A DNA stretch of 64,000 nt from contig JAZAYU010000005.1 of assembly GCA_038501625.1 (NCBI GenBank), forward strand, positions 5,580,001 to 5,644,000, written 5' to 3'. The stretch is from Corbicula japonica. Taxonomy: Eukaryota > Mollusca > Bivalvia > Venerida > Cyrenidae. The stretch's first letter is position 1. Each line of letters opens with the position of its first letter. A program made the translations under genes and the position numbers. Positions 9,796 to 62,825 of the stretch are shown piece by piece. The notes under the pieces were generated by a model that saw only the letters and a program-made list of their open reading frames with translations, ran no database searches and was not told where the DNA came from.

Positions 9796-9796
9796 T

Positions 9797-10180
9797 AACT
9801 AGATTCTGTCCTCATGACACTGCTGCAACAACATTTGTAACAAAATTGTTTTTCAGGTATAAATATCATGACAAGCAAATGAGGAGTAAGTGCCACAAAG
9901 TTTTATGACTTACATAAACTCTTGTAAAAATGGTTGCAAGACAAATTCTTTTACAACATCTACACATTTTGTCTGTGCAAGTTTGAAAGAAATCCACCAA
10001 ATAGTAAATAGTTAATAGAAGTTCATGCCAAAAAATTTTATTACTGAAATTAACAAAGGGCCATTACTCTGGTAAAAAATATTTGGAGGTAAAAATCTCT
10101 TCTAAATGATCATCTAAACATCCTGCTTGATCATCTGTGCAGGTTTGAAAGTAATCCAACTTAAAGTAAATCGGTTGATC
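9797..10180 (+). mobile_element. GCATAAAA-family element, left part (split by the LTR element)
   Basis: Starts ACTAGATTCTGTCCTCATGA and is collinear with the copy at 54234 up to the GATC at 10177; the rest continues at 19253. Confidence 0.8.
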
Positions 10181-12571: not shown

Positions 12572-15500
12572 TTACTTTTTCTTATTTGATTTAAAAATTT
12601 TACCAGGCTGGCTGATCTTGGCAGCAATTCTATACAAAAGTTGCCTAACACACTTGATTGGGGCCTGAGAAAATGGAAGCCAGATAGGTTCACGAGAGTC
12701 AACAAGAAAGACTTTGAAGAAAGTAGAATCTAGAGGGTTTGTTTCATCATTTGTGATGACAGCTCTGATCATTTTTGCTTCTACTGGCTGTCCATCATCA
12801 AGTAGAGCAGTTTTACTCTGCCAGTTTTCATAGTCTACTTGTTGTAGGCAGTCAAACAGTGAATTTAGGTATGGCTGCATTTGCTTTTTCCTCTCTGATA
12901 TTTTAAAGGGAACTCCACAAGTTGATGTTACAGGGTGAAAACCAGGTTGATGATGATAGATTTCTTGATTTGATAGGTCATAAGTTTCCCTGTAACCTGT
13001 CATAAAAGGTTTTGTACTGGTTGGCTTTACAAAGTTGACATTTGGTGGCAACCTATCAAAGAATTTATGATTTTGTAGAGGGCGCTTTCTTTTTCTGCCT
13101 GACATGGTCCTATTGACGTGGTATTCTCTGATGAAAACATCAGGAATAGTGGTAGCGTACTCCCATGTGCTGGGTTTTGTAGAATCCTTCCATTTTATCC
13201 TATAATAGAGTGTGTCTTTGTTCCTTTTGGAAGTTATGATTTTGTCTATGTCTTCTGTTTTGAATTTTTGTGTAGTGGGTGTATTTGGTAGTTGTGAATT
13301 TTGATCGTTTGAAGTTGATGGCTCTTGAAGCTGTGTGTTGGGTGTTTGATTGCTTTGAGTGGGTTCTTGTGAATTGTGATTGTGTTGTTGCTGCTGCTGA
13401 TTTGATTGCTGCTGATTGTTTTGTTGTTGTTGCTGCTGAGTGTCTGTTTGTTGCTGTTGCTGAATGTTTGGTTGTGCTTGAGCAGTTTGATTATCAGTGT
13501 TAGTGTTTTTGGACTTTTTGGGCCTAGCTTTAAATTTTGGGTTTGCTGGCTGCTTACCACGTGATGTTGAGGGTTCTTGCTGTGGAGCTGGATTTGGGAT
13601 TTCTTCCTCCAAGGGTATCTCTTCAGCATTTAAGGGTTCCTCCAGGTGTTCATAACCTGGCGGTGGATTTGTTGGCCTGTCATTGGGGTCAAAGTATGGT
13701 TTAAGGCGTGTGGCATTGACCAAAACTTTAACCTCTTTGTTGTCACTGCAACGCCTTAGTTTGAAGGTGTTGTTGGGACCGGTTACCACTATATAATACG
13801 GTCCTACCCATTTCCTGTGCAGTTTGGGAGCCATGCCAGGAGGTACTTTTGTACAGTACAGCCATACCCTGTCGGCAGGTCTGTACTTAGTTTCCTGACT
13901 CCTTTTGTCATACTGCTGTTTGTATTTGTCTTGTGCAGTTTTGATGTTTTCAGCAGCTATTTTCCTAGAAATGTCTAAATTTTGAAGAACTTGGGCCAAA
14001 TGAGTTTTGAAGGAAGCAGAAAGAGTAGATTTGGGAGTAAGAGAAGTGTTTATAGGAAGACGCATTTCTCTGCCAAAGAGTAAAAAGAAAGGAGAGTGAA
14101 GAGTTGATTGGGTAGCAGGGGTCATCCGATAAGCCATCATGATAGAGGGAAGTAGTTCTGGCCAATCATCCTGCTGTCCCTTACAGTAGAGTCTAAGTGA
14201 CTGAAGGATCACACTGTTCATTCTCTCTACAGAGCCATTAAGTAAGGGCCGGTAGGAACTGGTATAGAACCGTGTGATCTGAAATAGCTCACAGAGAGCT
14301 TTCACGAGCTTTGACAAAAACTGCTGTCCTCTGTCTGACACAAGGACATTAGGGGCTCCATAGCGGCATATTACTTCTCGAAAGAGCACAGCTGCAACTT
14401 CGGTGGCTTCCTGTGTGCGAAGAGGGAATGCTTCACACCACTTGGAATAGCTGTCAACTACAAGAAGGACATATTTGTACTTATCCTTTGTAGTAGGGAG
14501 ACCTCCTAAAATGTCTATATGCCAACGTTGAAACAAGTCAACAATAGGCATGGGTTGTAGAGGTGGCGGTTTGCCATGAATGTCACGTTTTACTCTCTGA
14601 CATTCTTCACAGGACTGTATATATTTCTGACAGTCTCCAAACATGGACGGCCAATAATATTTTTGCCGTAATGCTGCATAGGTTCTTTCAAATCCTTGGT
14701 GCATGCCACCAGCTAAGCTGTCATGATAGGATTTTAATAAATCATCCCTTAAAATTGAGGGCACACACACCTGAGTAATAAGTTTTTCATCCTTGGGGAT
14801 TCCTTTTGTTCTTGGTGTGTACAAATGTAATAATACACCCAAGTCCGAAATTTCATACTGTTCTGATTCTGCAACTATTAATTTTGATTTCTTGAGATCA
14901 TCTGGTAATTCTTTCTGTAATTTATATTTAATGATATTTTTGTAAAATTCATCCTCTCTTTGTAAAAATATTAAATCCATGTTCTGTTTAATGGGGTCAT
15001 CAGTATTTACTGAGCCCTGCTGTTCCAAGTCTTCATCTTCATTGTTTGGTGCTGTCTCAGTGCAAGCAGTGGCTGGTGCTACAGATGGAGTGAGAACTTG
15101 CTCATGACTGTAAACAAGTGTTACAGCAGCCAGTTCATTAGACTGTTGGTCTGAGAGCTGACATACTGCTTCACTTGTGTCATTTAGTTCTGTGCCACTT
15201 TTCTCTTTGACCTCAGTGTAGGGGCGACGAGAGAGTCCATCTGCGTTACCGTTAGCTTGAGAAGCCTTGTGAACTATCTCGAAATTGTACCCTTGTAATG
15301 AGAGTGCCCATCTTCCGAGACGTCCTTGGCAATTCTTTATTTGCTTTAGCCACTTCACAGAAACATTATCTGTGTACACTGTAAAGAAGCTGTTGGCAAG
15401 GTATGGTCTGAAATGTGACACAGCTTCAACCAATGCCAACCCCTCCTTATCAGTGATGTGCCATCTTGTTTCATGGCCATGTAAAGCTCTTCCGCCATAT

Positions 15501-17515
15501 GCAATAGGGTGCTCCAAACCTTCATCATCCAGTTGGGACAGTACATAACCAATAGAATGATCAGAGCTGTCGGTTGCAAGAATGAAAGGTCTATCGAATT
15601 TAGGGAAAGCAAGAATAGGAGCAGAAGTAAGAGCTTTTTTAAGAGTGTTAAATGAGTCTTCACATTCTTGTGTCCATACAAATTTTGCATCTTTCTTCAG
15701 AAGTGCATTTAATGGTCCAGATATTTTAGCATATGATTTTATAAATTTCCTGTAGTATGAAGTCATGCCTAGAAATGACTTGATATGTTTGGCAGTCTTT
15801 GGGCGTGGATATTCATCTATTGCCTGAGTTTTCTGTGGGTTAACTTTTATTCCATGTTTAGAAATTATATGTCCTAGGTACTCGATTTCCTTGGTGGCGA
15901 ATTTACATTTGGTGGGTTGGAGGGTGAGATTTGCAGAGCGTAGATTAGAAAAGACTTGAGATAGATCAGAAAGATGTTGGTCAAAGTTGCGACTGAAGAC
16001 CAAGATGTCGTCAACATAGACCAAAGCTATTTTCCAATTGAGATTCTTGAGCACTTTACTCATTAAGTTCTGAAAAGTTAACGGACTGTTCATAAGGCCA
16101 AATGGGAGGCGAGTCCAAGAATAAACAGACTGATGAGTGACAAAAGCAGATTTGTGAGCAGTCTCTGGATCAAGGGGAACTTGCCAGAAACCACTCTTTA
16201 GATCAAGAACAGAGAATACCTCCGCTTTCGCATCGGCGATAGTGTCAAAGATATCAGAGATGTGAGGAATAGGGAAAGAGATAGGTTCAGTGACTTTATT
16301 AAGTTCTCGGTAATCAACCGCAAATCTCCATTCACCATTTTTCTTTTTCACGAGTACCACAGGACTGTTCCAAGGAGAGTCTGACTCCTCAATGAAACCA
16401 TTATCCAGCAAGTCTTTAACCTGGCGCTCAGTTTCTCTGCGCATTTCAGGACTTTGCCGGTAGGGAGCCTTTTTGATAGGCTTATTGTCCCCAGTTTCAA
16501 TTCTATGGGAGTGCAGATGAGTAACTCCTAACTCAGAAAAATCTTTGGCAAAAGAACTTCTGTTTTTGCCAATGAAGATAAGGAGTTTTCTCTTTTGGTC
16601 TGTGGTGAGATCACTGTCATCTAGATTGATGCCTAGGTCTTCAGCAATGTCAATGTATTGCTGATCAGAGAGAATTTCAGCATTTATAGAATTCACAGAT
16701 TCAGAATGTTCAGGCACTTGAGTCATTTCATGATCAGTAACCTGTTTGATAGTAGAGAAGTTTATTTCAGAAAGGACAGAAACTCGAGTATTAGGTTTAA
16801 GATAGATAGGAAGAGCAGTAGGATTCATCAGCCGGTAGTGAACTTTGCCATCTAACACTGTGGATAAGCATTTGCCTCCTGCCAGTTCATCTTTGGCCAA
16901 GTGTTGTGGTGGCTCACACAGCACAATGTCTCCATCCTTGAATTTCTTAGTTTTCAAGGGTAATAGAAATTCAGAATGAGGTGGAATAACATGAGAAGAA
17001 AGAGTTTTGCCAAAGTCAGTTTTAGATAGGTCATCAGAAATTAGAGAAATTGTGATAGGCTGATCTTTCTGGAAAGAAATAGAATTTGTCTGAAAGTTCA
17101 GCTGAATGCCTTCTTTTTGCATGAAGTCACGACCAATAATAATGGGTTCGTGCAGCTTAGGAAAGACATGGAAAGTGTGTTCAAAGGGGAAACCATCAAT
17201 AAGAAAGGTAAGAGTGATGGTCCCTAGCACAGAATGAATCTCACCACATACACCATAGACATGTAAAATAGTAGCACTATCATATTGGGGATTTTTATGT
17301 AATTTCTGCACAATTTTCTCACTAATGCAAGATATGCCAGCACCCGAATCAAAAAGAGACCTGTACTGTTGATTCTCAATTTGAATATAGGCTTTAGAAT
17401 GTTTATCTAAAGAGGAAACTAAAGAGATAGAGGGTTTGACCTCACAATCATGAGTAATGCTAGAGCACTGTTGTTTAGAGCACTGCCAAGGAGCCTGATA
17501 CTTAGACGGAGCCAT
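12572..17515 (-). CDS. pol: Retrotransposon Pol polyprotein (PR-RT-RNaseH-IN-chromodomain)
   Basis: 1,647 codons, uninterrupted. Order of domains: aspartic protease with FDSGAG at 55-60; reverse transcriptase ~350-530 with VLDLKSG (D438) and YVDD (500-503); RNase H ~640-760 with LATDSS (D649) and YTDN (D716); integrase with zinc finger H931, H939, C969, C972 and catalytic D1001, D1061, E1097 (35 residues between the last two); a GPY-type motif KWVGPYYIV at ~1235; a Gln-rich linker 1340-1380; a chromodomain-like segment ~1421-1463 (YYRIKWKDS, STWEYA); a basic patch GRKRKRP; then ~170 residues I do not recognise. This order (RT before IN) is that of Ty3/Gypsy elements. Gag is absent and the frame opens ~50 residues before the protease. 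Intact motifs suggest recent activity. Confidence 0.96.
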   Translation of the reverse strand: MAPSKYQAPWQCSKQQCSSITHDCEVKPSISLVSSLDKHSKAYIQIENQQYRSLFDSGAGISCISEKIVQKLHKNPQYDSATILHVYGVCGEIHSVLGTITLTFLIDGFPFEHTFHVFPKLHEPIIIGRDFMQKEGIQLNFQTNSISFQKDQPITISLISDDLSKTDFGKTLSSHVIPPHSEFLLPLKTKKFKDGDIVLCEPPQHLAKDELAGGKCLSTVLDGKVHYRLMNPTALPIYLKPNTRVSVLSEINFSTIKQVTDHEMTQVPEHSESVNSINAEILSDQQYIDIAEDLGINLDDSDLTTDQKRKLLIFIGKNRSSFAKDFSELGVTHLHSHRIETGDNKPIKKAPYRQSPEMRRETERQVKDLLDNGFIEESDSPWNSPVVLVKKKNGEWRFAVDYRELNKVTEPISFPIPHISDIFDTIADAKAEVFSVLDLKSGFWQVPLDPETAHKSAFVTHQSVYSWTRLPFGLMNSPLTFQNLMSKVLKNLNWKIALVYVDDILVFSRNFDQHLSDLSQVFSNLRSANLTLQPTKCKFATKEIEYLGHIISKHGIKVNPQKTQAIDEYPRPKTAKHIKSFLGMTSYYRKFIKSYAKISGPLNALLKKDAKFVWTQECEDSFNTLKKALTSAPILAFPKFDRPFILATDSSDHSIGYVLSQLDDEGLEHPIAYGGRALHGHETRWHITDKEGLALVEAVSHFRPYLANSFFTVYTDNVSVKWLKQIKNCQGRLGRWALSLQGYNFEIVHKASQANGNADGLSRRPYTEVKEKSGTELNDTSEAVCQLSDQQSNELAAVTLVYSHEQVLTPSVAPATACTETAPNNEDEDLEQQGSVNTDDPIKQNMDLIFLQREDEFYKNIIKYKLQKELPDDLKKSKLIVAESEQYEISDLGVLLHLYTPRTKGIPKDEKLITQVCVPSILRDDLLKSYHDSLAGGMHQGFERTYAALRQKYYWPSMFGDCQKYIQSCEECQRVKRDIHGKPPPLQPMPIVDLFQRWHIDILGGLPTTKDKYKYVLLVVDSYSKWCEAFPLRTQEATEVAAVLFREVICRYGAPNVLVSDRGQQFLSKLVKALCELFQITRFYTSSYRPLLNGSVERMNSVILQSLRLYCKGQQDDWPELLPSIMMAYRMTPATQSTLHSPFFLLFGREMRLPINTSLTPKSTLSASFKTHLAQVLQNLDISRKIAAENIKTAQDKYKQQYDKRSQETKYRPADRVWLYCTKVPPGMAPKLHRKWVGPYYIVVTGPNNTFKLRRCSDNKEVKVLVNATRLKPYFDPNDRPTNPPPGYEHLEEPLNAEEIPLEEEIPNPAPQQEPSTSRGKQPANPKFKARPKKSKNTNTDNQTAQAQPNIQQQQQTDTQQQQQQNNQQQSNQQQQQHNHNSQEPTQSNQTPNTQLQEPSTSNDQNSQLPNTPTTQKFKTEDIDKIITSKRNKDTLYYRIKWKDSTKPSTWEYATTIPDVFIREYHVNRTMSGRKRKRPLQNHKFFDRLPPNVNFVKPTSTKPFMTGYRETYDLSNQEIYHHQPGFHPVTSTCGVPFKISERKKQMQPYLNSLFDCLQQVDYENWQSKTALLDDGQPVEAKMIRAVITNDETNPLDSTFFKVFLVDSREPIWLPFSQAPIKCVRQLLYRIAAKISQPGKIFKSNKKK

Positions 17516-18470
17516 TTTATCAAAAGCACTTAAAATTCAATAGTAACTGAATAAATAAATTGTATTTAACCAATAATAAATATACTGTAAAATCAGTAAA
17601 ACTAACTTTTATCTGGTAAGTGAAAATAACCTTTCAAAATATATGTCTGTTACCAGCTATGTAAATTTAAGTATTGCCTATAATTATTTTTACAAATTTG
17701 CAAAACAAAATTACTTCCAGCACTTAAAAGGTGTCTTTTTATTTTCAATTTTAAGTTAAAACAATCTGTATGAAAATTACTATAATTTAATAAATATTGT
17801 AAAGGTTATACTGAAATAAATAATTTAGGTAACAATAATTTACAAATTTATAAAGGCTTGTAATTTTAACTCAAAACCTAAGTTATAAAATAAATACTAT
17901 TAGGAGAATCTGTAAAATGTGTAAATGCTGTTCTATATTAAATAAATAAATAAATTTGATTTTAACAACTGTTTGCAATATAGGCAAAACAATATAGCAC
18001 TAAATGTTGAAACTTCACTTACCAACAACTTTAATTTAGGTTCAAAGCACAGTTTTCACTTTGGCATCTTCTTTCTTTACTTCTTCTGTGTACCTGGCTC
18101 TGGTGTTGGCTTCAGGGATTCTGTTTTCTGCTTCTATAATGATTATATAGCTCCTAGGTTACCCTTCTTGGTTACATGATTTTAGCATCTCTGGCTTTTT
18201 ATTGAACTTAATGTCAATGTTTTACACTTTGCTCCTCAGCTTTTCGTTTTATAACTGCTCAATATATAACTTCTTGGATAATTTCTTCAAGAAATGTTCA
18301 TAACTTCTGGCATCAGCATACATAATCATTTGTACTTATGGCAAACTTCAAGCACCTCTGTACCGTATTTGGTTTAAGTCCACTTCTGTGATTTACCCAG
18401 TTTTATGAGTTTAATTCACTTTCTGTTAGTGAAATCGATTCGATACCACGAGATTCTCTCACCACAAAGC
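17516..18470 (-). other. Leader between 5' LTR and pol; no gag found
   Basis: 955 bp of AT-rich DNA with runs such as repeated AATA. No minus-strand frame of useful length and no CCHC zinc-knuckle signature were found, although this is where gag should lie. Confidence 0.7.
18445..18470 (-). other. Primer-binding-site region, tRNA not identified
   Basis: On the minus strand, six bases after the 5' LTR comes TGGTGAGAGAATCTCG, and further on a second TGGTATCGAATCG. TGG is the hallmark of a site pairing with a tRNA CCA end. Neither stretch could be matched to a particular tRNA by eye. Confidence 0.35.
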
Positions 18471-20557: not shown

Positions 20558-22925
20558 AATGACTACCTTGAATGTCCGATTTATACCAACTGCATGAGTA
20601 CAGCAAAACCTCTGATAAAGACTTTCCTGAATGTTTAATAAATACAAAGTGCTCAAGTACAGTTATACCTTTCATAAAGACTACCCTTAATGTTCAATAT
20701 ATACAAACTGCATGAGCACAGTAAAATCCCTCATAAAGACTACCCTTAATGTTCAATATCTATGAACTGCACAAGTACAGTAAAACTTTTTATAAAGACT
20801 ACCCTGAATGTTCAATATATACAAACTGCGCAAGTACAGTAAAACATCTCATAAAGACTACCCTAAATGTTCAATATTTATGAACTGCACAAGTACAGTA
20901 AAACTTTTTTTAAGACTACCCTGAATGTTCAATAAATACAAAATGCTTAAGTACAGTAAAACCTCTCATAAAGACTACCCTGAATGTTCAATATATACAA
21001 ACTGCGCAAGTACAGTAAAACCTCTCATAACGACCGTGAATGTTCAATATCTATGAATCGCACAAGTGCAGTAAAGCCTCTTGTAAAGACTACCCTGAAT
21101 GTTCAATATATTCGAACTGCCATGTACAGTTTAACCTCTCATTAAGACTACCCATAATGTTCAATATCTATGAATTGCATGAATACAGTTAAACTTTTCA
21201 TAAATACTACCCGCAATGTTCAATATATACTTCCCTGAATGTTCAAAATATATGAACTGCCTAAGTACAGTAAAACTTTTCATAAAGACTAACATGAATG
21301 TTCAATATCTATGAACGGCACAAGTACAATAAAACCTTCCATAAAGACTTCCCTGAATGTTCAATACATTTGTACTGCACAAGTACAATAAAACTTCTCA
21401 TAAAGAATGCCTCGAATGTTTAATATACACCAACTTCATGAGTACAATAAAACCCCTCATAAAGACTACACTGAATGTTTAATATATACAAACTGCTTAA
21501 ATACAGTTAAACCTCTCATAATGACTGCCCTAAATGTTACATATCTATGAATTGCATGAGTACAGTAAAACCTTTCATAAATACTACCCTAAATGTGAAA
21601 TATATACTCACCGCCCAAGTACAGTTAAACCCCTTATATAGACGTCCCTAAATGTTCAATATATATGAACTACCCAAGTAAAGTAAAACCATTCACAAAG
21701 ACTACCCTAAATGTTCAATATCTATGAACTGCACAGTAAAACCTTTCAAAAAGACTACCCTGAATGTTCAATAAATACAAACTGCTTAAGTACAGTAAAA
21801 CCTCTCATTAAGACTACCCTGAATATTCAATATCTAAGAGATGCACAAGTACAGTAAAACCTTTCATAAAGACAACCCTAAATTAAATATCTTTGTACTG
21901 CACAAGTACAGTAAAACCTTTCATAAAGACTACCCCGAATGTTCAATATCTATGAACTGAAAGAGTGCAGGAAAACCTTTCATAAAGACTACCCTAAATT
22001 CAATATCTATGAACTGCACAAGTGCAGTAAAACCATTCATAAAGACTACCCTAAATGTTCAATATCTATGAACTGCACAAGTACAGTAAAGCCTTTCATA
22101 AAGACTACCCTGAATGTTCAATTTATACAAACTGCTTAAGTACAGTAAAACCTCTCATTAAGACTACCCTGAATGTTCAATATCTTAGAGATGCACAAGT
22201 ACAGTAAAACCTTTCATAATGACTACCCCAAATGTTCAATATCTATGAACTGCAAGAGTGCAGTAAAACCTTTCATAAAGACTACCCTAAATTCAATATC
22301 TATGAACTGCACAAGTGCAGTAAAACCTTTCATAAAGACTACCCTGAATGTTAAATATCTATGAACTGCACTAGTACAGTAAAACCTCTTATAAAGATTA
22401 CCCTGAATAATAAATTTATACAAACTGCAAAGGTACAGTAAAATCCCTCATTAAGATTCCCCTGAATGTTCAATATATACGAACTGCATGAGTACAGTAA
22501 AAGCCCTCATAAAAACTATCCTGGATGTTCAATATAGACCAACTGCATGAGTACAATAAAACCTCTCATAAATATAACCCTAAATGTTCAATATACACCA
22601 ATTAAATGAGTACAGTTAAACCTCTCAAAGACTACCCTGAATGATCAATATAGACCAATTGCACAGGAACAGTATATCCCCTAATAAATATAACCCTGAA
22701 TGTTCAATATACACCAATTAAATATGTACAGTTAAACCTCTCATAAATACTTCCATGGATGTTCAAAATTTACCAACTGCATGAGTACACTAAAACTGCT
22801 CATAAATACTTCAATATAGACCAACTGTATTAGTACAGTATAACATCTCTTTAATACTACCTTAAACATTGAATATCAACTGCATGAATACAGTAAAACC
22901 TCTCAAAAATACTACCCTGGATGTT
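20558..22925 (+). repeat. Diverged ~58-60-bp minisatellite
   Basis: About 39 units with ACAGTAAAACCTCTCATAAA, GACTACCCTGAATGTTCAAT and a short ATACAAACTGC linker. They are much more diverged than the units at 8-9 kb. Small frames such as that near 21939 are by-products. Confidence 0.92.
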
Positions 22926-37742: not shown

Positions 37743-37995
37743 TGTCACAGTACAATCTAGTCACTATCTGGAGGGAAGATGTGTAAGCGAACAGAAAGCT
37801 TGGTCGGGAGAGCACTCGCCCTGTAAGCTAGGATTCCTAGGTTCGACTCCTGGTCTGGCTGCACATACTTTCTCACCCAGTAACATTTGGGGCCAATTGG
37901 GGACCATGATAGCTAGCCTGTTTTGCCACCAGCGTGTAATTGCAATTTAAATACACGTTACTCTTTGGAATTCGATGACGAATTTCCAAATTTGA
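37743..37995 (+). repeat. tRNA-derived SINE, first of a tandem pair
   Basis: GTCACAGTACAATCTAGTCA leader, A box TTGGTCGGGAGAGCAC, B box GGTTCGACTCC at 37840-37850, then CTGGTCTGGCTGCACA and a unique tail. Confidence 0.75.
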
Positions 37996-37997
37996 GG

Positions 37998-38135
37998 TGA
38001 TGTATGTCACGGTACAAATCAAGTCACTACCTGGGCAGAAGATGTGTTAGGTGATGGATAGCCCGGTCGGGAGAGCCCTCGCCCTGTAAGTGAGGGGTTC
38101 CGGGTTCGAGTCCCGGTCTGGCTGCACATTTTTTC
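37998..38135 (+). repeat. tRNA-derived SINE, second of a tandem pair
   Basis: Same leader (GTCACGGTACAAATCAAGTC), then GGATAGCCCGGTCGGGAGAG, anticodon arm CTCGC-CCTGTAA-GTGAG (a Thr(TGT)-like loop), B box GGTTCGAGTCC at 38103-38113 inside a perfect CCGGG/CCCGG T arm. It is the better-preserved tRNA fold of the two. Confidence 0.75.
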
Positions 38136-39668: not shown

Positions 39669-40258
39669 TTAACCTTTTTCTCCATCCATTTGCCTTTTAT
39701 AGCAAGGGCGACCAGTGTAGATCCAGATCAGCCACCATATGAGTGATGATAGATCAGGATCGACACTAGTCAGTCTGATTTATTTGGTTAATTATGAGGC
39801 ACGCCACGGGAAAAGGTACCTTCGGTCATTTTTTGTGTTATTTTTGTTGTTATTATATTTAGAAAGAACTTTCGAATTTCTATTATTTTCTCATAACAAA
39901 ACTGTGATTTTGTTACACATTTTGACAATAAAATGTTATTTTTACCGCGAATTGCCTAATAATTAATGTCGTCTGCTCAACTTTATGACGTCGTTTCAAG
40001 GATTGACGTCAACTACCCGAAGGTACCTTTTCCCGTGGCGTGCCTCTTATTATCTAACCAAGAAGCAAAAGTGTAGATCCAGATTAGACTGCAAAGATGT
40101 GCTGTCTGATCTGGATCTACAATGTTCAATTCCTGGTCAGAAATAACTTAATGAATCTTAAAGCAAACAGTGTAGATCCTGCTCAGATGGCACAAATATA
40201 CACACTGATCGGGATCTACATTCTTCACACATGCGACAAATGTGGAATAAAGAGTTTA
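39669..40258. mobile_element. Double-hairpin MITE split by a GAGGCACGCC element
   Basis: AACCTTTTTCTCCATCC at the left; interrupted at 39796-40046 within the spacer; continues with TCTAACCAAGAAGC and the second hairpin. Confidence 0.8.
39796..40046. mobile_element. MITE with GAGGCACGCCACGGG ends
   Basis: 251 bp, ~30-bp terminal inverted repeats (GAGGCACGCCACGGGAAAAG then GTACCTTCGG), flanked by TTAT on both sides. Noncoding. A second member is at 53516-53766. Confidence 0.85.
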
Positions 40259-42048: not shown

Positions 42049-45000
42049 CTAGTAAGTGTTAAGGAAGTTCACTGCAAATTTCATAATTTCTACTTTTCCT
42101 TTTTTTTAACAATGTTTGACATTGTCATGAAAATGGCCAATTGAGACATTAGCATTTTAGTGCTACTCCAAAAACCATCCCAATGACCTTTAACCTTTAG
42201 CCCCATCAGATATATCATCGGCAAACTTAAGGGGTTACCAATAGATCAATTAGTGGAAAAACAATTTGTTACTGGGAATATTAACCACTTTTTAGGGTAG
42301 ACCATCTTAATTAAAAACCATTCTGTCTGATCTGGATCTAAACTGTTCATTTCTTGGCCACAAATAACCAAACTTAAATACTGTAGATCCTGATCAGATT
42401 GCACAAACATGCTGGATGGCCTGGATCACCATTGTCACTTGACTGTTTCACTGCGCATGTCTGTACTTTATCAGACAAGCAGACAGTAGTAAACCAATTT
42501 TGTCTGGTGATTATAGTCGCCAGAGAATCCTTAGCGAACTTCAGTTATCTTTCCTTGAGGTTTAAAATAGGCGGTATTCCCCGCGCTTACAAGTACATTC
42601 TGCAGGAGATTAACAACAACAGTTAGTGTTAGATTTAAAAATACAACGGACTAAGAGTCATATTACAAGATGTATGTTTACCATTATCCCAACAGGGTTG
42701 CTGATAGCAATTTGATGCCACTTCAATGTCGGTCTCTGATTTATTGCCATTAATATGTTAGGAATGCATACTATGCTGAGATATTTATCTGTATCTGTAT
42801 TGTTACGACGCTTGTAACCACTGCTGGCGTAGTGCGGCGTGGGTTTCAATGTTAACCCTTTGAGTTGCACAAAATTTACTGCACAATGTTTGTCATATCC
42901 TGCCTTTCAGTGCGATGTTTACACCTTCTAGATGCTGGTTTAATAAAGTATAAGCTGTACCTCTTCTTTTCTTTATCACAAATGGTTTATATTTACTCTT
43001 TATTCATGTCAAGTTTTATGATGAATTATTGTAATGAGCAATAGGGCTAGTTGATAAGAAGCTGGAGAGAAAATTTTAAAATAGATACAAAAAACAGGCG
43101 TGACGTAATTCAGCAGCCAATCAGAGGCCTCTAGTTTTTGGTTTACAACAGTCGTTTATTTTCTGATAACGACGGAGAAAGAGTCTACATTGTCACACGT
43201 AGGATAAAACCTGTATCCCAAGGAGTTTCACAGGAGGTTTAGTGGGGTTGCTCGAACCTGCCTTTTGGGCAGAAATATTTTAAAAATTTCATGGGAATTT
43301 GGCCAGAAAGATGGAAATTATCATGTTAATACTATAAGACTGCCCTTAACGAAACCCCCTTTCTGAAAATCTTGCATGTGATAGAAGTTTGATAGTCAAT
43401 TGTCTGAAATAGAAACATAAACATTACACTGCACTCTCTTCATGTCCCCTAAAATGAAACAGTAACAGACACAAAAAGGATACAGTTGAGTTCTCCGGCC
43501 TCGTGTTTGGGCGGAGCAGGCAGATTTAATATCACAAGTTTGGCTTCATGGGATTTCTGGATAATCACTTCATTCAGACGTACAGCGGTATGCATTCTGC
43601 GTACATTCTTGCTGTCCCTGTAATTGACAGAAAATAATTTCGAGTTACAATTCATGTTAATTCAAATAGCCATGATCACTTTTTAACCCTTCACTCCACA
43701 GACATGAGTTTAACCCTTTCCTCTATAGATACACCTTTATTGCTAGGGCGAACAGTTTAGATCCAGATCAGCCGACACATCCGTGCCGTCTGATCAGGAT
43801 CTAAACTGTTCGCTCTTTGATTCATTAGGTTATTTCTGACCAAAATGTGACCAGTGTAGATCCTGATCAGACGGCATGGTTATGCCGGCTGATCTGGATC
43901 TGCACTGGTCGCACATGCGTAAAAATGCGTATATATCAAGGAAAGGGTTAATGGCATGGATGAACAATGCAGATTAAGATCAGTTTGCCAATCCCTGCAG
44001 TCTGATTAGGATACTGTTTGCTATTTGATTAATAAGGTTATTTCTGGCCAAGAGGTGAACAGTGTAGATCCAGATCAGATGTCCTAGAAAATGGCTAAAC
44101 ACTGTTTCCAAAGACGATAAAACCTATATACATGGATTAAAGAAATAGACTACAGGTTTTTCTTGCATACCGGATAAGTATTTCCATGTGATTTAGCAAT
44201 TTAGAAAATAAGGTTTGCTTTAACATCAATATTTTAGCGTATGGAAACAAAATTATGTTGGTATACATATACACAAATGTTATGAACAGTGAAAGGTATG
44301 TAAGAAAAAGTATCTTGCATGAGACATAGAAAAATCTGTCACCTCGGGTGAACTGTTTTGGCCGGCACTCGGCAGCGCCTCGTTCCCGCAAAACAGTTCA
44401 CACTTGTTGACAGATTTTTACATCTTCACCTTACACTAATGCAAGATACTTATATGTTTAGCCATAACTATGTTGTTAATGGAAGTGTATACTGAATGTT
44501 ATAATAAAAAGCAAAGTTACGTTTAATGATGAGTTTCATAGCAAGAGATTTTAAACAAGAGGGCCATAATGGCCCTATATCGCTCACCTGAGTACAAAAG
44601 TACTCTCTGCTTGTGGTTTCAGACAAGAAGATTTTTAAAGTTTTGCCTATACAAGTCTATGTAAAATGAAGTGACCCCTGGGGCGGGGCCAATTTTGACC
44701 CCAGGGAAATCATTTGAACAATCTTTGTAGAGTTCCAATAGAGGATGATAAATGCCAAATATCTAAGCTCTAGGCCTTGTGGTTTCAGACAAGAAGATTT
44801 TTAAAGTTTTGCCTATACAAGTCTATATAAAATGAAGTGACCCCTGGGGCGGGGCCAATTTTGACCACAGGGAAATCATTTGAACAATCTTTGTAGAGTT
44901 CCACTAGAGAGTGCTAAATGCCAAATATCTAAGCTCTAGGCCTTGTGGTTTCAGACAAGAAGATTTTTAAAGTTTTTCCTATATAAGTCTATGTAAAATG

Positions 45001-48000
45001 AAGTGACCCCTGGGGTGGGGCCAATTTTGACCCCAGGGAAATAATTTGAACAATCTTTGTAGAGTTCCACTAGAGGATGCTAAATGCCAAATATCTAAGC
45101 CGTAGGCCTTGTGGTTTCAGACAAGAAGATTTTTAAAGTTTTTCCTATACAAGTCTTTATAAAATGAAGTGACCCCTGGGGCGGGGCCAATTTAGACCCC
45201 TGGGAAATAATTTGAACAATCTTTGTAGAGTTCCACTAGAGGATGCTAAATGCCAAATATCTAAGCTCTAGGCCTTGTGGTTTCAGACAAGAAGATTTTT
45301 AAAGTTTTACCTATATAAGTCTATGTAAAATGAAGTGACCCCTGGGGCGGGGCCAATTTTGACCCCAGGGAAATTATTTGAACAATCATTGTAGAGTTCC
45401 ACTAGAGGGTGCTAAATGCCAAATATCTAAACTCTAGGCCTTGTGGTTTCAGACAAGAAGATTTTTAAAGTTTTTCCTATACAAGTCTTTATAAAATGAA
45501 GTGACCCCTGGGGCGGGGCCAATTTAGACCCCTGGGGAATAATTTGAACAATCTTTGTAGAGTTCCACTAGAGGATGCTAAATGCCAAATATCTAAGCTC
45601 TAGGCCTTGTGGTTTCAGACAAGAAGATTTTTAAAGTTTTTCCTATATAAGTCTATGCAAAATGAAGTGACCCCTGGGGCGGGGCCAATTTTGACCCCAG
45701 GGAAATCATTTGAACAATCTTTGTAGAGTTCCACTAGAGGTTTCAAAATGCCAAATATCTAAGCTCTAGGCCTTGTGGTTTCAGACAAGAAGATTTTTAA
45801 AGTTTTTCCTATATAAGTCTATGCAAAATGAAGTGACCCCTGGGGCGGGGCCAATTTTGACCCCAGGGGAATAATTTGAACAATCTTTGTAGAGTTCCAC
45901 TAGAGGATGCTAAATGCCAAATATCTAAGCTCTAGGCCTTGTGGTTTCAGACAAGAAGATTTTTAAAGTTTTGCCTATATAAGTCTATGTAAAATGAAGT
46001 GACCCCTGGGGCCGGGCCAATTTTGACCCCTGGGAAATAATTTGAACAATCTTTGTAGAGTTCCACTAGAGGATGCTAAATGCCAAATATCTAAGCTCTA
46101 GGCCTTGTGGTTTCAGACAAGAAGATTTTTAAAGTTTTTCCTATATAAGTCTATGTAAAATGAAGTGACCCCTGGGGCGGGGCAAATTTTGACCCCAGGG
46201 AAATCATTTGAACAAACTTTGTAGAGTTCCACTAGAGGATGCTAAATGCCAAATATCTAAGCTCTAGGTCTTGTGGTTTCAGACAAGAAGATTTTTAAAG
46301 TTTTTCCTTTCGGTTGCCATGGCAACCAGAGTTCTGCATGGAATTGATTTCTTTGAACAACTTTGGAAGAGCTTCATGCAAGGAACATCCGTGGCAAGTT
46401 TCTTCAAAATTGGCCAAGCCGTTTCAGAGAAGAAGTCGTTTGAAGAAAAAGTTGACGACGGACGGACGGACGCACGGACGACGGACATCAGGCGATCACA
46501 AAAGCTCACCATGAGCACTTCGTGCTCAGGTGAGCTAAAAAAGCGAACAGTGCAGATCCTGATCAGATTGTTTGGATGTGCCGGCTGATCTGGATCTACA
46601 CTGTTCGCCCATGCAAAAAGTTGTGTATATGGATGAAAGGGTTAATATAGTCTGAACATTTTGTGAATGTACTTCAAATTTGTTGTTGTTGTTGTTGTTG
46701 CTTTACTTACAAATTTGAACAAAATATTCACAAAAGCCCATGTTCAGTGCTATAAATTACAAATGATTATTTCATAGAATATGTCAAAATTTACCCTATA
46801 AAAACTTCCAGAGCAAAGTTCTTAATATTGCATAACACAGATCTAAGCAGGAAAGTTCAGTAGGTCATTTAATATGACCAGCAACCAGAGCATTGAACTC
46901 CATAATGCATTCTTATACATCTTAATATAGCTGAAGACAGGTAGAACTATTGAAATTTTGTCACTTAAAATTTTCACTCTGCTACTAAAATTTTTGTTTC
47001 AAATTTTATCACTGAACAACCAGTGAATGAATTGTTCAGGAAAGATTGAATTTTTAGATGGTATAAAGTTTGTGCCAAAATCTGGTTGATAACTATAGAA
47101 AATCAAAGGTTAAAAACAGAATTTAAAAGAAAAAAATTTTGAAAACCCCAGGGCGGGGCCCCTGGGCAATTCAAGAACATGATTTTAATAATTTGAGTAG
47201 AGATCATTAATATCAATATTCATACCAAATTTGATGACAATCAGATAAAAAATGTGACCTCTATTGCATTAACAAAATTTTTGCTTTAATCTGACCTAGT
47301 GACCTAGTTTTTGACCCAAGATGACCCAGTTTCAATAGGGGTCATCACACCACCAAGAGAAACATTCTGACCAAGTTTGATGAAAATCGGTTGAAAACTG
47401 TGGCCTCTATCGCGTTAACAAAGAAAATGTTGACGGACGACGGACGACGGACGACGGACATCTGGTGCCCCTCTGATCACAATAGCTCACTCAGAGCCTT
47501 CGGCTCTGGTGAGCTAAAAAGACAGAGCGCTCAACTATTCAATTTGCCCGGGTGAGTAAGGTAGCTCCTTTATTCTTCCAATAGTGTAGCTCAAAATTCT
47601 AAGTACATACTCAAGGTACATACGCCAACCAAATTTCTCTGAAACATCATTAAATATTACAAAATGTACATACGGTTTAATATCTAGGACATTTTTGTTG
47701 ATTGCCTGTGCCATTAGTTTCATAGGTACCCCCTGCTTGTTGAAGCCAGGTGAAAATGTGTACTGGTTCCTGTCTGACAACTTTTCTTCATCTGTTGTTG
47801 TCTCGCCACCATCCACATCTTCTATCGTCACTGAAATAAAGTAAAACAAATTTTTTTTTTATCTTGCCTATATTTACTCCACAGGATACTGTGGTAGATC
47901 TATCATTAAATTTCTCACAGTTTAAAATTTAGCTTATTTTGCGCTGTAACAAATGCTTGAATTAAAACCTTATTGAAATTAAGCCATGTGATAGCCTATC

Positions 48001-51000
48001 CTAAAATAATAATACAGTTGCCGGAATTTTAACCCACTTGAATAATTCAATTGCTACTATTGCACGAAAATTCACCCCGCGAAATTAAACATCAGCACAG
48101 TATATCCCGTGGATGACCAGTGTAGATTCACATTCTGATCCCTATCTACACTGCTTCTTAGTCACAATAAAAATAATGAATCCAAAAGCAAATCTTAAAA
48201 ATTCCTGAACTGTCTGCATTGCTGTCGCTGTAATAAACATTTTTTTTTCATATTTCAAAGTTTCAGTCAAACATACTGCTAGCTTTAAGATTATTAACTG
48301 AGTATGGAAACCAGTCATAGATCTCAAGCTTCTGATTGGTCAGTTTTGAGACTTTGCTTAATTTCAACCAATCAGATTACTCAGTTTTATAGCCCTGGTA
48401 CCTGGCTTAAGCCTGTCTCACACAGAACACGGTTGGGCATACAGTTCCAATACGGTATACTCGGTTATACCTGGGTTGACTGGTACGAGTATTGAACACC
48501 AACTGTGCCTGGGGATGAGTTAGTACGATTTAGACTTGAATGTAGCAAAAATATGTACAAACAAAGCAAGGATATACTCAGTCAAGCAAGGTTTGTCATG
48601 GTTTGAACACGATTTGCAACCGATTTTCATACGATTGTTGTACGGTTCCAAGTATGGTCTAGTACTGTCTGTTACGGCCTAGTACAATATAACACGACTT
48701 TTACTCATTTAACTGGACATTTACAGGGTTTACATAGTATTACGGTCCCACAGACTTTTGTTTGAGTTATATTTCATACGTTTTATATACGATATTGACA
48801 CGGTTGAGCTCACTAGTGGAGTGGACTTCATGTGCGGTTGTATATACGGTCTCGTACGGTCTCACACGGTCTTGTACGATCGCTAATACAATCATACACG
48901 GACATGGCATCCGTGCCAGTTTTTTTAAAGTTTTAAAAATCATACATGGCTTTCATGGATACACTCGAACGGCCCTAGTGTAACACTGATAAGGCCATGG
49001 TTGGTTCGGTTGTATGTACGGTTTACATGGGTGGCCAACCGTATAAGCCGTGTGTTCTGTGTGAGACAGGCTTTAGCTGCTTCACAGAGTGTGTTCCATA
49101 TCCTTGTAAGTACTTGTTGTGTGGACAGCCTGACTGTAGTTCTTCCATGTAATTTTAAAATACTTTGTTAATCCTCACTTCCATAAATGCAATGTTTGTG
49201 TGTGCAAACAGTGTAAGTCCAGATCAGCCAGGACATCTGTGCCATCTGATCAGGATCTACACTGTTTGCTTTTTGATTTATTAGGTTATTTCTGACCAAA
49301 AAGCAAACAGTGCAAATCCTGATCAGATGGCACAGCTGTGCCCGCTGATCTGGATCTACACTGTTTGTTCATGTGCTTAAAGCCATATATTTGGGTGAAA
49401 GTGTTAAATCAAAGTCCTTTCAATTTGAAATTGAGCACATCCCAGGAAAATAATATAATAAAGAAATTACAATAGTATATTACTTTCTAATACACACTTT
49501 GTCTAAATAATGTTATTTTTATCATAAATTGCATTATTTCCATCAAATACAGTCAACCAAGATCATAACACTGTGAGTGGAGACCAGTCTCTAACTTTGC
49601 TCGCTGACTGGTCTCCATTCTCAGTTCTATGATCGTGGAAAAAAAACCCATCATAGTTTTCACTCAAAACTTCATAAAAAATTCCATCTAAACCTTTAAA
49701 CATATATTAGCAACATCAAGATACAAAATACCTTTTGCAATATTTAACTACAACCAACTGCTACAACAAAAAGAGAGCAAAATCTCGGCCCAAGATCATC
49801 AAACTGAGACATTGGAAACCAGTTTCCGATCTTTAGCTTCTGATTGGTTGAAATTGAGACCAGTCTCCAAATGAGCCAATCAAAATCTTAAGTTTACAGA
49901 CTGGTTTCCGACTTCACAATAAATTTTATGAACTTGGGACCAGTCATGAAATCAGCAGACAACAGTGACAGAATGCAAAAGACAGTATTACTCTTCAAAA
50001 ATGGAGGTTTTTGAGTACTGTAAAATGATAAAACTTTCATGTGGTACTAACTTTCGTGAATTTCAAGGTCTTATCAAATCACGAAAAACAACCACCAAAT
50101 AAAGAATTGAACACAAGAATAGTTTAGAAAATTAAGATCCGTGAATTTAAGAACACATGAAATTGTGTCTAATGAAAACAGAAAACCACGAAATTTCATT
50201 ACTTCAAATATAAATGCATCCGGAAGTTTTGAAAACAGTTTTTTTTTTCTATTTAGCTGATTTCATCCCTGAAAAGAGGAATTGTTTGATGTGCATAGGG
50301 TACATATACATTATAGCCTTGTAACGGAAAATGTGTGCCGACAACATACAACAAGAGGGTCCAAGGGACCCTGGGTCGCTCACCTGCGAACATCTGTTCA
50401 ATGGTTTGGACAAAAATTAAGACCACTAGAGTGCGTACAAACTTTTTCTATAATTTGACCTAGTGACCTAGATTTCAAGGTCACATGACCCAGTTTGGAA
50501 CTTGACCAAGATATCATCGAGATAAACATTCTGACCAAGTTTGAAGAAGATCACATCAAAATTAAGACCGCTAGAGTGCGGACAAGCTTTTTCTACAATT
50601 AGACCTAGTGACCTAAATTTCAAGGTTACATGACTCAGTTTCGAACATGACCTAGATATTATTGGAATAAACATTCTGACCAAGTTTGAAGAAGATCTGA
50701 AAATAATTACGACCACTAGAGTGCTAACAAGCTTTTTCTATAATTTGACCTAGTGACCTAAATTTCAAAGTCACATGACCCAGTTTCGAACTTGACCTAG
50801 ATATCATTGGGATAAACATTCTGACCAAGTTTGAAGAAGATTAGACTAAAATTACGAATACTTGAGTGCGGACAAGCTTTTTCTATAATTTGACCTAGTG
50901 ACCTAGATTTCAAGGTCACATGATCCAGTTTCAAACTAGACCTAGATATCATTGGAATAAACATTCTGACCAAGTTTGAAGAAGAACGGACCAAAATTAC

Positions 51001-54000
51001 AACCGCTAGAAAGCAGACTAGCTTTCTTTTAATTTGGCCTAGTGACCTAGTTCTAAGGGTCACATGACCCAGTTACGAACTTGACCTAGATATCATTAAG
51101 ATAAACATTCTGTTCAAGTTTAAAGAAGATTGCACTAAAATTAAGACTGCTAGATTGCGGACAAGCTTTTTCTATAATTTGACCCAGTGACCTAGATTTC
51201 AAGGTCATATGACCCAGTTTCGAACTTGACCTAGATATCATTGAGATAAACATTCTGACCAAGTTTGAAGAAGATCGCATCAAAATTGAGACCGCTAGAG
51301 TGCGGACAAGCTTTTTCTATAATTTGACCTAGTGACCTAAATTTCAAGGTTACATGACCCAGTTTCGAACATGACCTAGATATTATTGGGATAAACATTC
51401 TGACCAAGTTTGAAGAATATCTGACCAAAATTACAACCACTAGAGTGCGGACAAGCTTTTTCTATAATTTGAACTAAAGACCTAGATTTCAAGGTCACAT
51501 GACCCAGATTCGAACTTGACCTAGATATCATTGGGATAAACATTCTGACTAAGTTTGAAGAAGATCGGACCAAAATTACAACCACTAGAGTGCGGACAAG
51601 CTTTTTCTATAATTTGACCTAGTGACCTAGATTTCAAGGTCACATGACCCAGTTTCCAACTTGACCTAGATATCATTGGGATTAACATTCTGACCAAGTT
51701 TAAAGAAGAACGGACCAAAATTACAACCGCTAGAGTGCAGACAAGCTTTTCCTTTAATTTGACCTAGTGACCTAGTTTTAAGGGTCACATGACCCAGTAA
51801 AGAACTTGACCTAAATATCATTAAGATAAACATTCTGACCAAGTTTAAAGAAGATTGCACCAAAATTACGACCACTAGAGTGCGGACAAGCTTTTTCTAT
51901 AATTTGACCTAGTGACCTAGATTTCAAGGTCACATGACCCAGTTTTGAACTTGACCTAGATATTATTGGGATAAACATTCTGACCAAGTTTGAAGAAGAT
52001 CGAACCAAAATTACGACCACTAGAGTGCGGACAAGCTTTTTCTATAATTTGACCTAGTGACCTAGATTTCACAGTCACATGACCCAGTTTCGAACTTGAC
52101 CTAGATATCATTGGGATAAACATTCTGACCAAGTTTGAAGAAGAACGGATCAAAATTACAACCGCTAGAGTGCAGACAAGCTTTTTCTTTAATTTGACCT
52201 AGTGACCTAGTTTTAAGGGTCACATGACCCAGTTTCGAACTTGACCTAGATATCATTGAGATAAACATTCTGACCAAGTTTGAAGAAGATTGGACCAAAA
52301 TTCTGTCCGCTAGAGTGCGGACAACAATTGTGAACGGACGGACGGACGGACGTCCGTTCTTACGAACGTCATTTATGTGGCTACTCTATTGTCCTCTCTA
52401 TTGTTCTTTTAGCCACATAAAAGAAAAAATTAGCCACGTAACAGAACGGAATGAATAGAATTTACCGTTACCATTGTTCTCATAGCCACATAAATGGCGT
52501 GGCGTAAGCACGGACGGACGGACGGACGACGGACGAACCCCCCTCACAAAAGCTCACCCTGTCACTACGTGACAGGTGAGCTAAAAACATAACATCTAGG
52601 GACAAAACAGGATTCTGGAATGAAACAAAATCTCTTGTATCGCATTGCATACTGTAATTTTCTAACATTGCTCTTGGGTTACTCACAGGTTTAAATACCG
52701 TATATTTTAAAATGGATAAAATAGGTAATGATGGATTTTTGATAAAGAGATTTTGCTGCACTATGGGGGAATATGTAAAACCAGTCCTGTTTAAAGAAAA
52801 AAACTGGTTTTCCCATTAAAGTCCTGTTACACTCACAAGGAGAATGTTCATGTGTGTTATCTACGTTCACTGAAATTGAAAACATTATAAAGTTACTAAT
52901 AGTAAGTCCAGCTTGGTATTTGACCCTTTACTCTAAAGATATACATTTATTGCATGTGTCAACTGTGTTGATCCAGATCAGCCAGCATGTCTGTGCTGTT
53001 TGATCAGGATCTGCACTGTTTGCTTTTCTGTCAGAAATAACCTCATGGATCTAACACAAACTAGTGCAGATTCTGATCAGACAGCATGGATGTACCGGCT
53101 GATCTGGATCTACACTGGTCACCCTTGCGATAAAAGTTGTATATATGGATTACCGTCATTGTCTGAATATAAGCCGCACTTTTTTTCCAGAATTTGGCAG
53201 TAAAACGTTGGGGGTGCGGCTAATACACAGGTTTGGCTGCTTATACATTGCGTTAAGCCATTTTCATCTGTTCCATCAGGTTTAGGGGGATGCGGCTTAT
53301 ATATGAGTGCGGCTTATATTCGAACAATGACGGTAAAGGCATGTGCAACCACTGTAGATCTAGATCAGCCTGCCAATCCATGCAGTGTGACCAGGATCTT
53401 TACAGTTTGATTCTCAGTCAAAAATAATTTAATAAATCTAAAAGAGACTGTTTATAGACCTTGATCAGACTGCACAGATGTGGATCCGGATCTAGATTAG
53501 TTGCACTTGGAATATGGGGCGCGTCACGGGAATAGGTACCTTCGGACAGTTGACGTCAATCTTTAAAATGACGTCATAAATTTGAACAGACGACATTGTT
53601 TATTATGCATTTCGCGGTAAAAATACCATTTTATTGTCAAAATGTGTAACAAAATCACATTTTAGTCATAATAAATTGATTTATAGTTGTAAGTTCTATC
53701 TAAATTTAGTAAAAACTAAAATATCACTAAAATGACCAAAGGTACCTTTTCCCCGTGATGTGCCCCCATTTAAGCCATATCCATTCAGTAAGAGGTTAAA
53801 GATAGCTGATTACAGAAACTTATAGTAATTTTGTACGTCGTATTTCTAGCAGGTAAACTACATTTAACCAATGATTTATCTACACTTCTGGTATAATATA
53901 TCATTTTCACTTCATTTTATGATTTTCCCATTAATATCATTTTCACTTCATTTTATGATTTTCCCATTAAAATGTGACCATGCCTTTGGAAACCAATGAG

Positions 54001-62198: not shown

Positions 62199-62344
62199 CT
62201 GAAGCAGAATTGATTAAGAGAAATATAAGCAACGGTTGAGTTAGTTTTGGCGACTGTTAGTATTCGGAACCTGTTATTCCACAGATATTTCTTACTCTGG
62301 TATCATTAGGATGGGTATTGCCAGGAAAAATGACATTGCGCTAT

Positions 62345-62584
62345 TATCCCTTTCCTGTATAGATACACCTATATTGCTAGGGCGAACAGTTTAGATCCAG
62401 ATCAGCCGGCACATCCATGCCGTCTGATCAGGATCTAAACTGTTCGCTTTTTGATTCATTAGGTTATTTCTGAACAAAATGCGACCAGTGCAGATCCTGA
62501 TCAGACGGCACGGATGTGCCGGCTGATCTGGATCTACACTGGTCGCACATGCGTAAAAATGCGTATATATCAAGGAAAGGGTTA
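62345..62584. mobile_element. TTAA double-hairpin MITE copy, well preserved
   Basis: TCCCTTTCCTGTATAGATAC to CAAGGAAAGGGTTAA; both arms close to the consensus (GCCGGCACATCCATGCCGTC, GACGGCACGGATGTGCCGGC). Confidence 0.95.
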
Positions 62585-62825
62585 AACTATTCCAATATAC
62601 TGAAATATATTGCAGTTGTTTATAACTGATAAAGTAACATGCATTAGCACTGAACTAGGTCAACTTTTTTTGTGTCAATAACATTTTGTGACTTTCAATA
62701 ATCAGGTGGAAATACATTTTAATTTAAAGATAAATGGATCAATATCATTGTAAATAAATTTGATTGTGAAGATTCTTAATAAAGATGACTTGATTATGTT
62801 CAAATTACATAAAGTAGGTTTCATT

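Follow-up and report, generated by a model that had tools for sequence, protein, structure and literature searches.

Closest described systems

CMITE, a repeat of Acropora corals, is the closest published case to the MITE analysed here, which was found in a 64,000-nucleotide stretch of Corbicula japonica DNA, referred to below as the window. Like the Corbicula MITE, CMITE is of the piggyBac type, with TTAA duplications and several families that carry CCCTTTCC tips (PMC2872659). The two also share an internal region that is better conserved than the terminal inverted repeats (TIRs) and is common to families with different TIRs (PMC2872659). A role of this internal region in transposition was suspected by the authors of that work, who left the question open (PMC2872659). 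The coral element is ~100 bp long, compared with 234 bp in Corbicula, and a twin-hairpin layout is not described for it (PMC2872659). Its 60-bp internal consensus has no strong fold (z -0.5) and reaches a local score of 8 against the Corbicula MITE, with a shuffled mean of 10.0 and 194 of 200 shuffles scoring at least as high. Local alignment against shuffles thus gave no sign that the two interiors are homologous.

Pokey and its MITE form mPok, from Daphnia, provide a second comparison. They belong to the piggyBac superfamily, and they resemble the Corbicula element in having MITEs beside autonomous elements and a nearly equal spectrum of TTAA, TTAT and ATAA target sites, which for Pokey is reported as TTAA 88.13, TTAT 5.93, ATAA 5.09 and CTAA 0.85% (PMC3849761). 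Unlike the Corbicula MITE, they also insert at one site in 28S rDNA, and the passages of that report cited here mention no twin hairpins (PMC3849761). For piggyBac in the mouse genome, a TTAA share of 93% is given (PMC3983033). The ends of piggyBac and piggyBat carry imperfect palindromes close to the tip, again as in the Corbicula MITE, and these are described as being bound by paired C-terminal zinc domains (PMC11707139). Such palindromes measure 12-19 bp and sit no more than about 120 bp from the tip (PMC11707139), whereas those of the Corbicula MITE, which start 34 bp from the tip, are far longer at 66-68 bp. Kolobok, a superfamily that also uses TTAA, serves as an outside comparison (PMC6004289, PMC9587614).

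No published account of the Corbicula MITE was recognised among the PMC titles listed, and the nine titles listed for two 12-base strings from its core look unrelated. The superfamily, the target and the conserved interior are already known from CMITE.

Anatomy of the element

The 234-bp non-coding element at window positions 62348-62581 is confirmed as a MITE. It is short, bears TIRs, belongs to a family of high and uniform copy number, and has no transposase gene, for which 234 bp is too short. Its parts are as follows.

62344..62347, no strand: TTAT, left target-site duplication (in this family, TTAT and ATAA can replace TTAA as the 4-bp target site)
62348..62581, + strand: complete MITE of 234 bp; its tip, with GT at positions 10-11, assigns it to the youngest subfamily
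62348..62361, + strand: left terminal inverted repeat, CCCTTTCCTGTATA
62382..62447, + strand: left imperfect hairpin, 66 bp, from an inverted-repeat search
62448..62479, + strand: spacer, 32 bp (AGGTTATTTCTGAAC in this copy, AGGTTATTTCTGACC in the consensus)
62480..62547, + strand: right imperfect hairpin, 68 bp, which repeats the left one in inverted orientation, from an inverted-repeat search
62568..62581, - strand: right terminal inverted repeat, from an inverted-repeat search
62582..62585, no strand: TTAA, right target-site duplication, its last base unlike that of the left duplication

This layout is a single inverted duplication. Two halves of ~100 bp, inverted copies of each other, flank the ~32-bp spacer, and each consists of a ~14-bp tip, a ~20-bp subterminal part and an imperfect hairpin of 66 or 68 bp. 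When the left half is compared with the reverse-complemented right half in the majority consensus of each subfamily, 88 of 102 columns agree in the old, 89 in the middle and 85 in the young one. The window copy has the ends CCCTTTCC and GGAAAGGG, with TTAT at its left and TTAA at its right. Its local hairpins have arms of 30 nt (93% complementary) and 32 nt (91%), while the halves pair with each other through 72-nt arms (90%) and the termini through 23 nt (83%). The sequence-only reading had described a palindrome of two palindromes, and both levels of pairing were recovered at this locus. Its view that a 13-nt spacer is the sole non-palindromic part did not hold, as the unpaired middle comprises ~32 nt.

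Both hairpins fold far more strongly than shuffled sequence under DNA parameters. The left one, in the middle-subfamily consensus, reaches -31.8 kcal/mol against -6.7 for shuffles (z -12.4), and the right consensus hairpin has a z of -12.9. Local and whole-element pairing, proposed as coexisting, do both occur, with one correction: the whole palindrome is the more complete of the two because each half retains identical internal mismatches. In the oldest consensus, it amounts to -101.1 kcal/mol, compared with -66.3 kcal/mol for short-span structures (DNA parameters). These mismatches recur from copy to copy: in the left hairpin, 85 of 90 copies have A-A and 79 of 89 have C-T; in the right, 72 of 87 have T-T and 75 of 84 have A-G. 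Total length is likewise stable, being 234 in 43 of 90 sampled copies.

A shorter derivative was also encountered. At positions 572-714 of locus L052 lies a 143-bp form with a single hairpin and intact TTAA ends, adjoining a match to a piggyBac transposase; locus L053 is 99.6% alike to L052 across 4.3 kb.

Copy number and genomic setting

The window contains 28 occurrences of the terminal motif CCCTTTCC, where 1.24 would be expected. BLAST matches merge into 41 MITE loci, and arm matches form 44 clusters (140 matches; reversed window, 1). The initial estimate of about 45 copies in 64 kb agrees with these counts, truncated copies included.

The genome examined comprises 1,069,688,145 bases in 1,630 contigs. 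The exact 15-mer of the consensus spacer, AGGTTATTTCTGACC, is present 31,191 times (control 3), a stem pattern that either hairpin can satisfy matches 44,153 times (control 0), and a full-length pattern has 11,241 matches, a few of them overlapping (control 0). Counting whole and partial copies, the family has tens of thousands of members or more. Its density in the window is several times the genome average, with 10 exact spacers vs 1.9 and six full-length patterns vs 0.7.

Other repeats and genes share the window. An open frame of 1654 aa at 12572-17536 (-) resembles, by eye, a Gypsy-type retrotransposon polyprotein, and tandem arrays lie at 8049-9798, 20561-22810, 44610-46308 and 50408-52324, with units of about 58, 59, 166 and 145 bp. 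Two tRNA matches on a common strand (37789-37861 and 38052-38125) are at or just above the Rfam threshold, and ARAGORN reports only the second. A foldback element of another type, with CACGCCACGGGAAAAGGTACC ends, is inserted in a MITE copy at about 39797-40048; the odd ends seen near these positions belong to it, and a second end-type MITE family in the window was consequently rejected.

Sampled copies, target sites and subfamilies

Variation within the family was assessed in 90 copies, all on contig C1, drawn from 100 listed full-length pattern matches of the 11,241. Thirty were taken as loci and 60 were others; the pattern left out flanks and arms and required CCCTT. Ten places were omitted by hand: two overlapped one already chosen, five came from a near-identical group whose other members were retained, one nearly duplicated a neighbouring copy, and the last two were unusual at the left end. 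Only one pair of the 90 copies differs in three columns or fewer.

Identical 4-bp duplications border 56 of the 90 copies (TTAA 49, ATAA 4, TTAT 3), and in the other 34 the two duplications are not identical; mixed TTAT/TTAA pairs, such as that of the window copy, which donor overhangs carried over into the new site might produce, are few. TTAA, put forward as the target site, is therefore the main one (49 of 56) but not the exclusive one, since TTAT and ATAA are used too. This sample supersedes two smaller sets. A set of 39 copies (TTAA/TTAA 14, TTAT/TTAT 12, TTAT/TTAA 5, others 8) had suggested TTAT as the main target, an idea dropped when the set proved biased by a query beginning TAT; 20 copies found with an element-only query gave TTAA/TTAA 15, ATAA/ATAA 1 and others 4.

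Empty sites were sought with 149 joined flanks, in which the two sides are connected via one duplication. Among the rows listed, gap-free matches across the junction were obtained for L140, L096 and L013. The partner of L140 (TTAA) is a repeat of the window, and those of L096 (TTAA) and L013 (TTAT) are other MITE copies. Many further rows were gapped, mostly reflecting insertions into other MITE copies.

Tip and arm bases place 69 of the 90 copies in three subfamilies and 21 in none. With median distances from their consensus of 14.6%, 8.1% and 3.8%, the groups contain 16 old, 19 middle and 34 young copies. The young tips have changed, including a paired change at 10/224, where C-G is found in 41, G-C in 23 and G-A in 11 of the 90. 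As a separate observation, CpG sites in the MITE (L102-L191) decay far faster than others: in young copies, 67 of 407 have become TG or CA, which hints that these repeats are methylated in the germ line.

Superfamily and search for a partner

Mobilisation of the MITE by a piggyBac-type transposase is well supported by sequence features. A TIR start of CC[C/T]T is characteristic of the piggyBac superfamily (PMC2872659). The MITE has such a start, together with a 4-bp TTAA duplication and a TTAT/ATAA minority. All three subfamily consensuses begin with CCCTTT, although the sampling pattern itself demanded CCCTT; window copies found by BLAST likewise have CCCTT-like ends. The piggyBac transposase domain PF13843 has 96 matches in the same genome, many of them broken, and is found in 0 of 14 control genomes. 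The proposal that the element is piggyBac-mobilised stands on this combination of TTAA/TTAT/ATAA duplications, CCCTTT ends, empty-site matches and transposase matches.

Movement of the CCCTTTCCT-ended element by another TTAA superfamily, Kolobok or Sola3, is highly improbable. TTAA is duplicated by Kolobok too, and one of its lineages, KolobokP, is reported to be particularly abundant in bivalves (PMC9587614). The same source, in the part drawn on here, gives Kolobok termini as 5'-RR and YY-3' (PMC9587614), a form that the CCC...GGG ends of the MITE lack, and the share of TTAT and ATAA agrees with that reported for Pokey (PMC3849761).

No autonomous partner of the MITE was found among the roughly five transposase loci at which ends could be placed. 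These come from 30 of the 96 transposase matches, for which loci with flanks of ~1.5 kb were considered. Among these, C61 (5.6 kb) has the tip CCCTTTACCACAT at both sides and C381 (2.6 kb) the tip CACTTTCACTGCC at both sides. The tips of C237 are imperfect (CCCTTTCGCTGCCAA and a copy with one change), and its left TTAA is not clean; those of L064 (CCCTTATCACGAT, CCCTTATCATGCT) and L059 (CCCTTATTGTGCT, CCCTTTTCATGCT) are imperfectly paired. None of the approximately five loci carries the MITE tip CCCTTTCCTSNAYA, and the closest resemblance, between the old MITE tip and one tip of C61, covers 12 of 15 bases. Interior similarity to C61, C381 and C237 did not clearly exceed shuffled scores; of the twelve comparisons, one, that of the right MITE end with C381, gave a score equal to the highest among 40 shuffles. 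An autonomous element with matching ends, which the sequence-only reading proposed to look for, is thus absent among the few resolved ones, the nearest of which also has a dissimilar interior. A further candidate, the pair L055/L067 (99.4% alike over 1.9 kb), was rejected, having a boundary without TTAA and no second end that could be found.

Covariation of the arms

Considering all sites, restored pairs make up 176 of 1083 (16%) in the local hairpins and 120 of 1052 (11%) in the whole palindrome, compared with 3-7% in slid controls. This signal was set aside as evidence of compensation, being largely due to CpG decay. Outside CpG, the left hairpin has 54 restored cells of 292, of which 48 come from the pair 44/91 alone; the remaining six are within slid controls. 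The right hairpin has 32 of 298, against 0-18 of 235-292 when slid, and the whole palindrome 20 of 592, against 10-16 of 476-539. The anticipated excess of compensatory changes is therefore mostly missing outside CpG. What was seen is one linked double change on the left, a modest excess on the right and hardly any for the whole palindrome.

At pair 44/91, 57 of the 90 copies have T-A and 24 have G-C, and intermediates are few. Together with pair 45/90, its commonest states are TT/AA (52), GT/GC (13) and GT/AC (7). Between the old and middle consensuses, the only non-CpG differences in the arms are G44T, G90A and C91A, all in the left hairpin. With these three, the count of local pairs goes up from 56 to 57 and that of whole-palindrome pairs drops from 61 to 58; random triples do equally well locally in 0.9% of cases, in a test chosen after the changes had been seen. 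One clear local compensating event in the left hairpin is in line with either selection or templated correction.

Templated correction would keep the hairpins alike without selection, each arm serving as the template of its partner through quasi-palindrome correction, template switching or conversion between halves. The rise in local pairing at the expense of the whole palindrome and the scarcity of intermediates at 44/91 are what such repair would leave. As the sole explanation it is nevertheless quite unlikely. Since GT/AC occurs in seven copies, G90A is separable from the double change. Internal mismatches also persist, standard pairs being present in just 4% of copies at 52/83 and 6% at 59/76, and neither the left hairpin without 44/91 nor the whole palindrome departs far from its slid controls.

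A second repeat family with the same hairpins

A reading frame of the window that crosses a MITE copy matched 18 conceptual proteins. Two of these, P0016 and P0018, were picked by eye for containing both hairpin readings as in the MITE, with a different spacer and different ends; P0016 aligns with the window frame at 37 identical residues of 84. A search with P0018 returned 448 proteins at E <= 0.001. Among the 120 P0018 matches listed, 115 contain DPDQ, the reading of GATCCNGAYCAR, compared with 15 of 16 first-group proteins, and one contains the RNN of the MITE spacer, compared with 12 of 16. The order DPDQ..LIxI..DPDQ..LxWI, which can be read in one frame of all three MITE consensuses, appears in 43 of the 120 listed and in one of the 16. 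Beyond the second hairpin, the commonest reading of the second family is HAGRKPIMLVLS (12 among the 120 listed), which has many near variants and is unlike the MITE; a strict end motif is found in six of the 120 listed.

These conceptual translations, nearly all metagenomic, show a second repeat family with readings of the same two hairpins, beside another spacer and other ends. Its DNA was not found in viral_contigs or genome_contigs, and the core of the MITE family was not found in viral_contigs. Second-family end motifs were met in the window only as near matches in a tandem array and as a core string that the MITE nearly matches too.

Conservation of hairpins, spacer and ends

The hairpins diverge less than the spacer in every subfamily. 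Non-CpG divergence of the left and right hairpins is 0.009 and 0.018 in the young group (spacer 0.031), 0.040 and 0.050 in the middle group (0.094), and 0.087 and 0.104 in the old group (0.131). Subterminal parts diverge more than hairpins in all three. So do the tips, with the exception of the left tip in the middle subfamily (0.015, below the 0.040 and 0.050 of the hairpins). The claim that arms are better kept than the outer ends accordingly stands, in a sample whose pattern spared the arms, apart from this one tip.

Variants were further divided into those shared by at least two copies and singletons. A division over all three groups had given hairpins fewer shared variants than the spacer for young (p 0.004) and middle (p 9e-6) copies, no such deficit for old ones (p 0.11) and, in the middle group, no difference from the tips. 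It was set aside because recurrent changes mimic shared ones at 10% divergence, and was redone within the young group. The 34 young copies have shared variants per site-copy of 0.0036 in hairpins, 0.0134 in the spacer, 0.0295 in subterminal parts and 0.0882 in tips, and singletons of 0.0101, 0.0174, 0.0213 and 0.0110 in the same order; hairpin singletons are lower than those of the spacer (p 0.09) and of the subterminal parts (p 0.005). A larger young set of 87 copies consists of these 34 and 53 of 59 copies selected by similarity, six having been dropped for a length other than 234. It yields shared variants of 0.0031, 0.0335, 0.0297 and 0.0747 and singletons of 0.0062, 0.0068, 0.0105 and 0.0050, the subterminal singletons again exceeding those of hairpins (p 0.015).

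The size and shape of the hairpins could suggest a service to the host, or precursors of miRNA-like or siRNA molecules: the stems are near-perfect, 66-68 nt with a 4-nt loop, and stem and loop resemble a pre-miRNA in size. Such a function is very unlikely here, as hairpin singletons are about as common as those of the spacer in the 87 copies, so that insertions are not visibly guarded, and an Rfam search of the window matched two tRNAs only. In a survey of molluscs, evidence for the processing of long dsRNA is described as elusive (PMC12479628).

Because shared variants cluster at few sites, the site is the fair unit of comparison. By this measure, hairpins differ clearly from ends: 6 of 114 sites carry shared variants against 16 of 54 in the young group (p 3.3e-5), and 7 of 114 against 16 of 54 in all 90 copies (p 1.4e-4). 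Against all other sites, the figures are 6/112 vs 20/74 (young, p 5.2e-5) and 5/112 vs 17/74 (90 copies, p 2.8e-4), or 7/114 vs 19/76 (p 3.8e-4) when subfamily-defining sites are restored in the 90. Hairpins and spacer do not differ significantly, at 6/114 vs 4/22 in the young group (p 0.056) and 7/114 vs 3/22 in the 90 copies (p 0.20, also 0.18), which implies that fast-changing ends explain much of the contrast. The suggestion that the hairpins are kept for a purpose is thus borne out by their having fewer shared variants than the ends, and the contrast with the spacer is not significant by site.

These comparisons also bear on a piggyBac-type MITE whose hairpins have no role of their own and are the remains of an inverted duplication, a possible, if doubtful, account. 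Its ends would have changed quickly between bursts, for example in following the transposase, while the interior changed at the baseline rate. The site comparisons with the spacer (p 0.056, 0.20 and 0.18) favour it, as do the restriction of shared variants to few positions, mostly in tips and subterminal parts, and the somewhat lower hairpin singletons among the 34 young copies, which a cold spot would also produce. It is opposed by total non-CpG divergence, which is lower in hairpins than in the spacer in three of three subfamilies, and by the presence of both hairpins in the second family, beside a different spacer and different ends.

Proposed role of the hairpins

The reading given preference is a piggyBac-moved MITE whose hairpins are cis-acting sites, with copies that have good hairpins mainly being the ones that multiply; it is held tentatively, at a little under an even chance. 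The non-significant site test against the spacer lowered confidence in it. The MITE would be non-autonomous, with a piggyBac-type transposase supplied in trans. Each hairpin would act in cis as double-stranded palindromic DNA and, by analogy with the ends of piggyBac and piggyBat, would most likely be bound by the paired C-terminal zinc domains of the transposase. Multiplication would fall mainly to copies with good hairpins, and inserted copies would decay fairly evenly. Even decay is countered by singletons that are uneven between regions in the 34 young copies and, for the subterminal parts, also in the 87. A requirement for good hairpins that applies to source copies and not to inserted ones is supported relative to the ends and only suggested relative to the spacer. 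The hairpin pattern fits a role in mobilisation without proving one.

In this MITE, an internal part seems to vary less from burst to burst than the termini at which a transposase has to cut, a pattern that bears on why some MITEs attain tens of thousands of copies. A bolder reading, speculative and rather improbable at present, is that the twin hairpin serves as a cassette for amplification, portable between MITE families with unrelated ends and acting in cis independently of the tips. If so, this module would recruit or synapse the transposase, or act in replication, and it would be the module, not the TIR, that persists through successive bursts.
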